A DNA stretch of 64,000 nt. It comes from Dactylosporangium siamense (lineage in GTDB: Bacteria > Actinomycetota > Actinomycetes > Mycobacteriales > Micromonosporaceae). Positions 19,030 through 23,120 of the stretch are shown here, piece by piece. The position numbers and the translations under genes are program-made. The first letter of the stretch is position 1; each line of letters starts with the position of its first letter. The notes beneath the pieces are model-generated. The model had not been told where the DNA came from, ran no database searches, and saw only the letters and a program-made list of their open reading frames with translations. The stretch spans positions 1 to 64,000 of the forward strand of contig NZ_BONQ01000087.1 of the NCBI RefSeq assembly GCF_016862795.1, read 5' to 3'.

Positions 19030-19956
19030 TCACGCGGTGCGGGCCGCGTGGCGGCAGGACTCGGCGAGGAAGCAGCGTCGGCAGTCCGGGGTGCTCACGG
19101 TGCATGTGTCGTAGGCGACCTGCTGGATCAGCGGGTGAACGCGCGCCAGGTCCGGGCCGTAGGCGAGCAGGTCCGCGGCGACTCGGCGGCAACCCGGGTT
19201 GGTGAGGCCGCCGTCGTAGTCGGTGAGACCGAGCCGGTAGGCGACCCGCATCAGGTGCTGATCGATCGGCACCGTGTCCGCGGCGTCGTTGACGATCGTC
19301 ATCACGACGGCGGCGGTATGTGTGCCGACACCGGGCAGCGACGTCAGGAGGTTGTTCAGTGCGCCCGAGTCGGAGCCGCCGATCAGCTGATCGAAGAGCG
19401 TCGTGCCGCGCCTGGTGAGGATCGCCGCGGTGGCGTGCAGGCGGGCGGCCTTGACCGCGCCGAGCGGTCTGACCAACTGGGTCAGTCTGGGCAACGGCAG
19501 GGCGAGAAGTCGTTGAGGGGTGAGTCCACCGCATTCGGCGGCGAGTCGGGGGAACACCTTCCGTACGGCCGCGGCGGGTCGGGTCTGGGCCAGGACGGCC
19601 AGCACGAGCGTCTCGAACGGCGATCCTGCCAGCAGGATCATGCCCTGGTGATGTCGGCGCAGCGCGCTCAATGCCGGGTGGCCCGCAAGGGCCATGGCAC
19701 CGACCTGTTCACCGTTACGGAACGTGGCCGTCAGCAGATTCCGCAACAGCTCTTCTTCCGGGCCGGTCCGGAACGAGAACCGCAGCCCGCCACGGTCGCT
19801 CTCGACTCGGACCCGGATGCCCTGCCCGTGCAGGTGGAAGGTGCGTTGCCAGGCGCCGGCCCCGATCATCTGCCAGGCCAGGGCAGGGAGCTGCAGTTGC
19901 ATGGTGGCCGCGAGATCGGGAGTGTTTTCGCAGGCCAGGCTCAATGTGGTAGGCAT
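19030..19956 (-). CDS. HhH-GPD DNA glycosylase with an iron-sulfur cluster
   Basis: 308-residue base-excision-repair glycosylase. After an about 110-residue N-terminal beta domain (AlkA/OGG-like layout) comes an HhH-GPD fold with hairpin LPGVGTHTAAVV and catalytic Asp in VPIDQHLMR. The C-terminal cysteines follow C-X6-C-X2-C-X5-C, exactly the endonuclease III [4Fe-4S] loop. The Lys that gives endonuclease III its lyase activity is His here (GVGTHTA), so I predict a monofunctional glycosylase. The lesion is unknown. The GCCACTTC repeats at 20065-20097 lie upstream. Confidence 0.82.
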   Translation of the reverse strand: MPTTLSLACENTPDLAATMQLQLPALAWQMIGAGAWQRTFHLHGQGIRVRVESDRGGLRFSFRTGPEEELLRNLLTATFRNGEQVGAMALAGHPALSALRRHHQGMILLAGSPFETLVLAVLAQTRPAAAVRKVFPRLAAECGGLTPQRLLALPLPRLTQLVRPLGAVKAARLHATAAILTRRGTTLFDQLIGGSDSGALNNLLTSLPGVGTHTAAVVMTIVNDAADTVPIDQHLMRVAYRLGLTDYDGGLTNPGCRRVAADLLAYGPDLARVHPLIQQVAYDTCTVSTPDCRRCFLAESCRHAARTA

Positions 19957-20064: not shown

Positions 20065-20097
20065 GCCACTTCGGAGGTGTGCCACTTCCGAAGTGGC
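20065..20097. promoter_or_regulatory. GCCACTTC triple repeat upstream of the glycosylase
   Basis: GCCACTTC occurs directly at 20065-20072 and 20081-20088 and inverted (GAAGTGGC) at 20090-20097. The last two form a palindrome with one central base; the outer copies form an 11-bp stem. It could be an operator or an RNA hairpin, about 110 bp before the gene. Confidence 0.45.
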
Positions 20098-20230: not shown

Positions 20231-20389
20231 TCAGTGCTGCCGCCGGACCCGGGGCACCAACCGGAGCAGCGCGAAGCCGCCCATGATCAACGTGGCGGCG
20301 AGCACCACCTGCCAGCCGATCGACAGTCCGGTCACCGGCAGTGTCGCAACACCGGCGCCCGTTCCACCGGCGACACTTCCTCCGTACAT
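20231..20389 (-). CDS. 52-residue membrane microprotein with LPVTG motif
   Basis: Small gene directly behind the glycosyltransferase (12 bp gap) with a strong GAAGGAG ribosome-binding site. The protein starts MYGGSVAGGTGAGVAT, followed by LPVTG, a hydrophobic helix (WQVVLAATLIMGGFALL) and a basic end RLVPRVRRQH. That is the exact order of a sortase sorting signal: LPXTG, hydrophobic span, positive tail. Yet there is no signal peptide and only 16 residues precede the motif, so it is not an ordinary surface protein. It may be a small membrane partner of the glycosyltransferase or a minimal sortase substrate. A perfect-stem terminator follows, which supports a two-gene operon. Confidence 0.75.
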   Translation of the reverse strand: MYGGSVAGGTGAGVATLPVTGLSIGWQVVLAATLIMGGFALLRLVPRVRRQH

Positions 20390-20401
20390 GTGCACTCCTT
20401 C

Positions 20402-21601: not shown

Positions 21602-22067
21602 CTACGTCAATCATGTTGTCGGTCAGGCTGAAGCGCACGGCTGCATTGCCCTTCGGTTTTCATGCCTCTTGGTTTCAGGGGTCTCCGCTGGCTCGCGTGA
21701 CCGATCAACCGTCGACTCGGGACGGGACGCGGCACGACGGACGCGAATTCATGACGGTTGCGGAGCCGACTTTGCTGGAAGCCGTTGTGGGGTCGCAGGG
21801 CAATCGGTGCCGCTTCACCCGGGTGAAATCGCTTGAATGAATCATTGGTCGGCGGGGGGTACGGCGGGGCAATGGCAATGCGTCACTCGCGAACTCATAC
21901 GGCGACCGGTCCGCGGGTGAAGGCACAGTCACCGCAACGTCGGTGGTTTGGTGCGGTGCGTAACGGGGAGTCGACGCCGGCATCTCGAGGCCGGACTGGA
22001 GCGGACGCACGTCGGATTCGCAGACCGCGGTCCGGGTGCGACTTCAGAAACAAAGGACACCTGTTCC
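21602..22067. other. Intergenic region with a palindrome
   Basis: 466 bp between the divergent glycosyltransferase and the gene at 22068. No convincing gene. At 21814-21827 there is a perfect 14-bp palindrome, TTCACCCGGGTGAA, a likely operator between two divergent genes. Composition is more A/T-rich than in the flanking genes. Confidence 0.55.
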
Positions 22068-23120
22068 ATGATCGATGCACCGTCGCAATTTCAAACACCG
22101 AAACCACGCCGCCTGATTCAACCGATCATGATTGTGCCGGCGGTGCTCGCGCTCGTCACGATCGTGTCGATCACCACGTACGTCATGAACGCCGGTAGCG
22201 ACAAGACCCACGCCGTCTCGGCGCCGGTTGCCACGCCGACCGCGTCGCCGCCGCCGCGGTTCGATCCCGACGCCGGTGCGGCGCTGCCGCGCAACCGCGT
22301 CGTCGCCTTCTATGCGGTGCCCGACGCCGCCGTCACCGGCCCGGCACATGAGCTCACCGGGGCGATGCTCGCCCGGCTCAGGCAACAGGCGTCGGTGTAT
22401 CAGCGGCTCGACCCGGCACATCCCGTGCTGGCCGGAATCGATCTCGTCGTCAGCGTGCCGGACCGGAAGCCGGGGCCGGCCGGCACGTACAGCCATCATG
22501 TGCCCGCGGCCACGATCGACGAGTACGTCGAATTCTGTCGCAAGAACAACCTGCTGCTGTTTCTGGACCTCAATTTCGGCTGGTCCGACCCGGTGGCGGA
22601 ATTGAACTTCTTCCGGCCGTATCTCAAGTTGCCGTTCGTGCACGTCGCCGTCGATCCGGAGTGGATGTTCCCGCGGCACAACGGCGTCCCGGGCGTCAAT
22701 CTGTCCAACGTGCGCGCCGCTGACCTCAACCCGCTCATCAGCGCGGTCGCGCGGATGCCGAAGGAATACCAGGTGCCGCGCAAGATGTTCATGATCCACC
22801 AGTACCGGCCCGACGGCGACGACCTGCCCGATCCCTACAACCCGGGCGCGGCGATCATCGCCGACAAGCGGAACCTGATCAACGACAGCCGGGTGGACGT
22901 GGTGATCCACGTCGACTCGGTGGGCGGCTGGCCCGGCGACATCGAGATGAAGACCGGGCAGTACGCCAAATGGGTCGACCAGGGCATGCAGCGGTTCCAG
23001 AACTTCAGGTACGGCGGATTCAAGATCTTCTACCAGCTGGAGTCCAAGAACAAGCTGATGACCGAGGAACAGGTCATGGCGCTCCAGCCGGCGCCGATGG
23101 TCATCACCTACGGCAACTGA
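22068..23120 (+). CDS. Membrane-anchored protein, possible (beta/alpha)8 fold
   Basis: 350 residues, not recognised. A signal-anchor helix (IQPIMIVPAVLALVTIVSIT) near residue 20 and a Pro/Thr linker (TPTASPPPR) place the rest outside the membrane. The body alternates hydrophobic strands with helices: VVAFYAVP, GIDLVVSVP, LLLFLDLNFGW, VHVAVDPEWMF, KMFMIHQY, VDVVIHVDSVG and FKIFYQLE. This resembles a TIM barrel as in glycoside hydrolases; E and D near strand ends (DPEW, LNFGWSD) could be catalytic. The start at 22068 has AAAGGA 10 nt upstream; an earlier frame lacks such a site. It is divergent from the glycosyltransferase, so a shared polysaccharide role is plausible. Confidence 0.65.
   Translation: MIDAPSQFQTPKPRRLIQPIMIVPAVLALVTIVSITTYVMNAGSDKTHAVSAPVATPTASPPPRFDPDAGAALPRNRVVAFYAVPDAAVTGPAHELTGAMLARLRQQASVYQRLDPAHPVLAGIDLVVSVPDRKPGPAGTYSHHVPAATIDEYVEFCRKNNLLLFLDLNFGWSDPVAELNFFRPYLKLPFVHVAVDPEWMFPRHNGVPGVNLSNVRAADLNPLISAVARMPKEYQVPRKMFMIHQYRPDGDDLPDPYNPGAAIIADKRNLINDSRVDVVIHVDSVGGWPGDIEMKTGQYAKWVDQGMQRFQNFRYGGFKIFYQLESKNKLMTEEQVMALQPAPMVITYGN

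Follow-up and report, generated by a model that had tools for sequence, protein, structure and literature searches.

A GT2 glycosyltransferase that works as a polysaccharide synthase can depend on a small membrane protein, as passages of one report on PgaD describe (PMC8461298). In the actinobacterium A. oris, the sortase-anchored glycoprotein GspA is glycosylated by the genetically linked LcpA, according to excerpts of the study concerned (PMC7831098). In passages of a 2026 study of Actinoplanes missouriensis, a motif-based hunt for sortase substrates yielded, in addition to SspA, seven candidates with lengths of 219-762 aa, and what class F sortases do physiologically is still called unknown (PMC13251363).

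The locus described here lies in the window, the whole 64,000-nt stretch of Dactylosporangium siamense DNA that was analysed. It consists of a membrane GT2 gene and, directly behind it, a microprotein gene that encodes little besides a sorting signal. Our literature search, with most subscription papers and all bioRxiv preprints outside its scope, returned no GT2-paired sorting microprotein among its top-ranked matches.

The microprotein gene and its GT2 neighbour

An earlier note, made from the letters of this DNA, had described a small gene behind the GT2 gene. Such a gene is indeed found on the minus strand, as a 52-codon ORF with a good ribosome-binding site, 12 nt after the GT2 stop (Table 1). 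Translation and hydropathy also agree with the layout given at the time, with 16 residues ahead of LPVTG, then a single hydrophobic stretch and an end rich in Arg. The deduced sequence of 52 aa is MYGGSVAGGTGAGVATLPVTGLSIGWQVVLAATLIMGGFALLRLVPRVRRQH. An in-frame GTG two codons 5' of the ATG is a possible alternative start, and the ATG is favoured because the family starts with Met-Tyr. The net charge of the segment before the motif lies between -1 and +1 in 73/73 scored relatives. The C-terminal elements of a canonical LPXTG protein (the pentapeptide, a hydrophobic stretch and a basic tail) are all found, as LPVTG, a single stretch and the tail RVRRQH. No N-terminal signal peptide or exposed domain is seen in the microprotein, whose hydropathy profile holds a single hydrophobic stretch and which has 16 residues before the motif; it is therefore filed as sorting-signal-like and not as a canonical surface protein. 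A Pfam-A search returned no family for it up to an E of 1.

Table 1. Coordinates of the features discussed, as positions in the window
Feature	Position	Strand	Basis and remarks
Microprotein gene	20231..20389	-	52 codons + TGA; ATG at 20389, TGA at 20231-20233; ORF and translation, relatives, pooled pN/pS <0.5
Ribosome-binding site AAGGAG	20395..20400	-	5 nt before the microprotein ATG
Codons 1-16, uncharged Met-Tyr and Gly/Ala-rich N-terminal segment, predicted outside	20342..20389	-	Relatives
LPVTG, predicted sorting motif, residues 17-21	20327..20341	-	Aligns with LAxTG; [AS]P[FW]xG in register
Predicted transmembrane helix, residues 23-44	20258..20323	-	Hydropathy; in the read-through model, helix 427-448
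Basic C-terminal tail, predicted cytoplasmic	20234..20263	-	R43, P46 and R47 (nearly) invariant in 11 relatives
Membrane GT2 gene, 399 aa	20402..21601	-	Pfam PF13641, PF00535 and PF13632 above cut-off
Hairpin behind the pair, 15 pairs, 6-nt loop	20160..20195	-	No T-tract; probable terminator
Near-perfect 15-nt inverted repeat, 3-nt gap	20065..20097		Upstream of the HhH-GPD gene
HhH-GPD gene	19030..19956	-	
390-aa ORF, divergent from the GT2 gene	21948..23120	+	No Pfam-A family up to E 1

The GT2 protein is predicted, from its sequence and its structure model, to be a processive membrane polysaccharide synthase of the hyaluronan synthase, BcsA and chitin synthase kind. Its catalytic motifs D129-A-D131, T239-E-D241 and Q277-R-x-R-W281 are invariant in 18 aligned rows. 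They correspond to the DxD/TED/Q(Q/R)xRW signature of processive synthases, and the catalytic domain is followed by interface and membrane helices as expected for such enzymes. The model fold matches hyaluronan, cellulose and chitin synthases with Z of about 17-24 in the matches listed; for the hyaluronan synthases, comparison with the model (pLDDT 83.7) gave Z of 20.8-22.9 over 319-335 residues with rmsd of 2.8-3.5. The best NCBIfam match is PgaC_IcaA, with an E of 8.2e-16 and a score of 57.9 against a cut-off of 422.3. In the tree, the window GT2 is placed beside that of D. aurantiacum.

A perfect-stem terminator had also been described behind the pair. The strong 15-pair hairpin is confirmed, with a folding energy of -39.7 kcal/mol (66 nt, z -6.2); it carries no T-tract and was not among the calls of a simple terminator scan. 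It is a probable terminator. Further downstream, the inverted repeat is a possible hairpin or operator. The divergent ORF on the other side of the GT2 gene was found by neighbour clustering at one other Dactylosporangium locus only.

Pairing of the GT2 with a small membrane ORF across genomes

For a class-wide sample, 394 genomes were searched with the GT2 profile, and five candidates were scored in each. A clear GT2 subfamily of 52 places was obtained (E 1.6e-135 or better), followed by 4 places between 8.7e-72 and 1.9e-63. A small ORF lies directly behind the GT2 in 50/52 subfamily members. As to the remaining two, one sequence is masked by N after MYQGNPLNS; in the other, a tail is fused to the GT2 and a separate ORF is absent.

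A second set, referred to as the named set, comprises the best 80 of 520 GT2 relatives in the public genome collection and spans 23 named genera; neighbour clustering of this set counts 26 labels, three of which are records without a genus name of their own. Directly behind the GT2, a small membrane ORF is found in 77/80 loci by filter and in 79/80 by eye, the two extra cases being L218, with a TTG start, and L230, cut by the contig end. At the exception, L212, an ORF start of the MADYTGAGTA type is found on the opposite strand together with a class E-like sortase, beyond another ORF. The gap between the two genes is at most 25 nt in 69/77 named loci. The ORF starts with Met-Tyr in 71/77, a count obtained with a filter that prefers such starts. 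It had been proposed earlier that short LPxTG ORFs be sought behind the GT2 genes of relatives. With a strict filter, a short L(P/A)xTG ORF was found at most 130 nt behind 36/76 GT2 genes, compared to 1/695 other genes at the same loci.

The flanks, up to 6 kb long and in some cases cut by contig ends, were clustered using genes of at least 90 aa called by a GC-position rule. Across the 80 named loci and the window, the GT2 is present in 81/81; 30 loci have a sortase cluster and 11 an ABC-ATPase-like one, and all other clusters are found in 9 or fewer. A larger shared operon was rejected, as apart from the sortase cluster no neighbour is found in more than 11/81 loci. Since the GT2 alone is common to all 81 loci, the pair is regarded as a stand-alone cassette in many genomic settings. 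The idea that the microprotein is a small membrane partner of the GT2 is therefore well supported as a genetic partnership, which spans the 23 named genera and holds also at loci without the sorting motif. This assessment is drawn from sequence comparison.

It is noted that two genomes (G210 and G520; loci L123 and L124) each carry two GT2-microprotein pairs, with one pair directly before a class E-like sortase. A plasmid search gave one distant record.

Conservation and selection

Searches with the microprotein as query (151 genomes) and with the GT2 as query (101 genomes) converge on the same loci, in three other Dactylosporangium genomes and in several other genera. In these three genomes the microprotein copies lie behind the same gene and are 84, 71 and 69% identical to that of the window. 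Both genes are thus present in 4/7 Dactylosporangium genomes; in the other 3/7, neither gene was detected at the E thresholds applied (0.01 and 1e-40). An alignment of eleven microproteins has Met1, Tyr2, Leu17, Thr20, Gly21, Gly38, Ala40, Leu42 and Pro46 invariant. Pooled pN/pS values, given as uncorrected proportions, are 0.10-0.44 over 8 groups of close relatives, with Dactylosporangium the highest. From these sequence comparisons, the microprotein gene is conserved and under purifying selection. The earlier note had tied its reading to conservation of both the ORF and the LPxTG motif at orthologous loci; the ORF is conserved, and the LPxTG motif is conserved in only part of the family.

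Motif variants and motif-less partners

Most of the named copies start with Met-Tyr, and about half carry LPxTG or LAxTG. Behind the 52 GT2s of the class sample, 23 small ORFs have L(P/A)x(T/S)G and 5 partners have a changed motif, three of them APFxG and two LTYAG. A further 22/52 places (L107-L111, L114-L116, L118-L119, L121, L127-L128, L130-L131, L133-L136 and L138-L140) hold longer partners, which loosely read LLPxS...FVAxNT and have one or two hydrophobic stretches, with neither LPxTG nor Met-Tyr. The longer partner in one genome (G521) has no clear start codon. No sortase was detected at an E of 1e-6 in G310 and G195, two genomes of the longer-partner branch. At three Pseudonocardia loci (L164, L169 and L218) the partner likewise lacks the motif, and no sortase is linked. 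Each of the four outgroup GT2s inspected is again directly followed by a small ORF with one or two hydrophobic stretches.

In Streptosporangiaceae and Thermomonosporaceae, the position of LPxTG reads [AS]P[FW]xG, with Pro and Gly in register and, as a rule, a Trp five residues further on. In the MANY-type Streptomyces copies (L191 and L231), the Tyr is at position 4, not 2. The view that LPxTG is an essential feature was rejected as a general claim, the motif being absent in 22/52 class places and at the three Pseudonocardia loci. As the partner is kept where the motif is absent, in outgroups too, the membrane partner appears to predate the sorting motif or to be the more general of the two. 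The LPxTG-like motif could be structural in some lineages.

Linkage to sortases

The D. siamense genome has 10 PF04203 sortase matches. Class E matches number 2 (1 above cut-off) and class F matches 6 (4 above cut-off); none of these lies on the contig of the window, and no sortase is linked to the pair in this genome. A sortase was found in 60/62 genomes examined. Such near-universal presence does not separate the motif classes, and linkage was therefore used instead.

The shifted-motif loci number 34, of which 31 were taken by strict pattern and three are near-variants (L195, L205 and L210). A sortase is found in the fetched flanks of 33/34 shifted-motif loci, compared to 3/40 loci with L(P/A)x(T/S)G, one of these three being about 3 kb away. 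It should be mentioned that the small Fisher value for motif versus linked sortase overstates independence, since the loci with the shifted motif fall within a single part of the tree, inside which the Yinghuangia locus L217 (LAMTG) also sits, unresolved. Of the 33 linked sortases, 15 are upstream and divergent, 16 are upstream with the same orientation as the pair and 2 (L210 and L200) are downstream; these varied positions suggest that the linkage has outlived rearrangement. All four linked sortases tested with NCBIfam NF033748 (L168, L193, L210 and L224) are class F, with 200-214 bits against a cut-off of 166, and the other 29 are class F-like by a home-made profile and a shared TCGG motif. 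GH(V/I)(D/N) and TCGG are kept in 34/34 class F-like sortase ORFs, L159 included.

A sortase gene also lies directly behind the pair in G489, G245, G520, G210 and at the Streptomyces loci L191 and L231. By NCBIfam, the two linked Streptomyces sortases are class E above cut-off; those of G210 and G520 are class E below cut-off. A same-strand sortase was further observed about 7-8 kb downstream of the pair in five genomes that belong to one family (G287:C53, G221:C410, G189:C74, G267:C1 and G317:C1), and these five were left out of the linkage counts.

The suggestion of a minimal sortase substrate therefore gains from the motif, which is kept or shifted in register, and from the class E and F sortases linked in part of the family, and it loses from the lack of a linked sortase at the present locus. 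Sortase cleavage of the microprotein is a prediction that we regard, on these alignments and linkages, as fairly well supported.

Read-through models and fused tails

The gap of 12 nt is divisible by three, so the GT2 stop could be read as a residue and both proteins folded as one chain. The pair is in frame in 25 named loci, of which 21 were used; together with 21 GT2-only rows and the window, the alignment comprises 43 rows. Models headed by the window and by the Actinomadura locus L193 have pLDDT of 83.7 and 82.8 and pTM of 0.81 and 0.82, respectively. Among the 50 matches listed, the chitin synthases extend over the microprotein helix in 12/12 (window model) and 5/5 (L193 model), a count that includes 7xs6, titled only as a membrane-integrated glycosyltransferase. 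This gives a weak hint that the microprotein helix lies as if replacing a late synthase helix. Hyaluronan synthases, in the matches listed for both models, do not cover it. BcsA entries (4p00_A and 9b8v_E) partly cover it in the window model and none do so in the L193 model, in which the soluble enzymes 9omm_B, 9jn3_B and 6h4f_I also extend over the helix. The structural evidence is weak because a link of 5 residues tethers the two proteins and because both models rest on the same 43 rows, reordered. Structure comparison of these models yields ranges and not contacts, and physical contact of the microprotein helix with the GT2 is only hinted at by them.

A GT2 of the present subfamily with a fused hydrophobic C-terminal tail is found in 3/150 Streptomyces genomes (G402, G649 and G665; loci L144 and L238-L240), and in G402 no separate microprotein was found behind it. 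Compared to a profile of 98 microproteins (from which L177, L228, G177 and G320, the last a spurious match 314 nt away, had been dropped), all three tails beat 1000 whole-tail shuffles. The same tails come 2nd, 4th and 6th in a ranking of 872 real sequences, interspersed with other proteins. The query that found the fused GT2s also aligned through a TGA into the separate microprotein in G245 and G613. These sequence matches are a hint, and only that, of a natural fusion of GT2 and microprotein.

A second, separate pairing

Different short sorting-signal ORFs, likewise with no signal peptide, were observed at seven other loci (L149, at G000:C168:38000-52000, and L150-L155). At 7/7 loci fetched, the strand of the short ORF also carries a GT2-like ORF of a different kind, no more than about 0.7 kb away. 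This count is biased, as six of the seven were fetched after weak GT2 matches had been seen nearby. The example from the D. siamense genome reads MSGTKVTGVVVTGG...SLPVTGSPVF.... In two of the seven loci the GT2-like ORF is followed by an epimerase-like ORF, the start of which we take to resemble a UDP-GlcNAc 2-epimerase.

Proposed role and alternative explanations

We propose that the microprotein is dedicated to the neighbouring GT2 polysaccharide synthase as its membrane partner and is also a sortase substrate, a reading that we hold with somewhat better than even confidence. By the positive-inside rule, basic segments are cytoplasmic; the uncharged N-terminus and the basic tail would thus place the N-terminus outside, with no need for a signal peptide. 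The single helix, predicted to be N-out/C-in, would pack against the membrane helices of the synthase. A sortase with its gene at another site of the genome would cut the 16-residue outer end with LPVTG between T and G; in D. siamense, a class E sortase is the candidate. Joining of the released outer end to peptidoglycan may then couple polymer export to the wall. The synthase partner would have come first, with its short outer end becoming a sortase substrate.

A permanent membrane subunit of the GT2, as PgaD is for PgaC, could explain the same pair if the motif were an uncleaved helix-cap or packing motif. Such a reading, which we consider rather unlikely, draws on the partners kept without the motif in 22/52 class places and in Pseudonocardia, on the two motif-less genomes with no detected sortase, on the four outgroup GT2s that also precede small ORFs with one or two hydrophobic stretches, and on the 3/150 Streptomyces genomes in which the fused GT2 tail weakly resembles the microprotein. 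It does not readily account for the invariance of L, T and G of the motif in 11 aligned rows, nor for the class E and F sortases linked in part of the family and the shift of the motif in the very clade with linked class F. The outer Met-Tyr peptide might also accept the polymer itself, for example on the conserved Tyr2, a sortase then linking peptide and polymer to peptidoglycan. The Met-Tyr start in 71/77 relatives (with the filter that prefers it), kept although much of the N-terminus varies, is consistent with a glycan anchor of this kind, as are the synthase fold and catalytic motifs of the GT2; a precedent is provided by A. oris GspA with LcpA, according to excerpts of that study (PMC7831098). 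However, Tyr is at position 4 in L191 and L231, and Met-Tyr is absent from the longer partners. Moreover, the active site of the GT2 is expected in the cytosol, from established knowledge of such enzymes, with the peptide predicted to be outside, and a glycan anchor appears quite improbable to us.

The bare sorting signal, with neither signal peptide nor domain, had also raised the idea of a sortase decoy. An inhibitor of this sort, or a degenerate stub of a former surface protein, is very improbable, as the whole length including the N-terminus is conserved under purifying selection and the gene is paired with a single GT2 subfamily in different lineages. A decoy is unlikely because nothing would bind it to one GT2 subfamily, and copies that lack LPxTG have the same GT2 partner. 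The ORF is short and its N-terminus is of low complexity, as would be expected of a chance ORF or an operon hitch-hiker unrelated to the GT2. But the same filter that finds 36/76 GT2 genes with such a neighbour finds 1/695 among other genes, and with the signs of selection this makes chance hardly credible. A chance ORF and a decayed surface protein were accordingly both rejected on conservation and selection.

The favoured reading of a synthase partner that is also a sortase substrate can be extended, tentatively and on balance doubtfully, to a system of GT2 synthase, peptide-sized sortase substrate and, in some lineages, dedicated sortase, which together would couple polysaccharide export to the wall by way of a short peptide retained at the synthase. 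For Streptosporangiaceae and Thermomonosporaceae this would mean that the dedicated enzyme is a class F sortase recognising a new motif, [AS]P[FW]xG. In the boldest form, which is speculation, the peptide itself bears the polymer.

The pairing, which is kept in many soil bacteria, suggests that a sorting signal can be encoded by bacteria as a microprotein of its own, in the service of a single polysaccharide synthase. It also suggests an unrecognised coupling of surface-polymer synthesis to the cell wall. If this is true, actinomycetes would have a direct path from polymer synthesis to wall anchoring, and a set of genes of fewer than 70 residues would gain a role. Class F sortases would gain a concrete candidate substrate and motif, and a role.

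Comparison with known systems

Among the closest described families is NCBIfam NF058583, LAXTG_small_WW ('LAXTG motif-containing small protein'), in which residues 1-50 of the window protein match model positions 1-51 of 54 with an E of 4.9e-7. Several other microprotein relatives tried are matched as well. The score of the window protein, however, is 29.3 compared to a curated cut-off of 65, and by that rule it is therefore not a member. The name and description of the family give neither a function nor a GT2 link.

Two GT2 families, the XrtG- and XrtP-associated glycosyltransferases (TIGR03111 and NF053846), are named for protein-sorting enzymes. They match the window GT2 distantly, with E of 2.4e-10 and 4.7e-6 and with scores far below their cut-offs. 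The XrtG and XrtP systems are of the exosortase type by name, whereas the linked enzymes described here are class E and F sortases. For GspA and LcpA, the modifying enzyme is an LCP protein; in the present pair, a GT2 synthase is linked to a substrate of 52 residues.

The likeness to PgaD, the accessory protein of the PNAG synthase PgaC, lies in a small integral membrane protein, assigned here by hydropathy, that is encoded with a GT2 synthase. The present protein differs in having a single hydrophobic stretch and a sorting motif. Finally, the window GT2 shares fold and catalytic motifs with the hyaluronan, cellulose and chitin synthases at 10-19% identity in the matches listed, and differs from them in that it comes with a separate small membrane protein.
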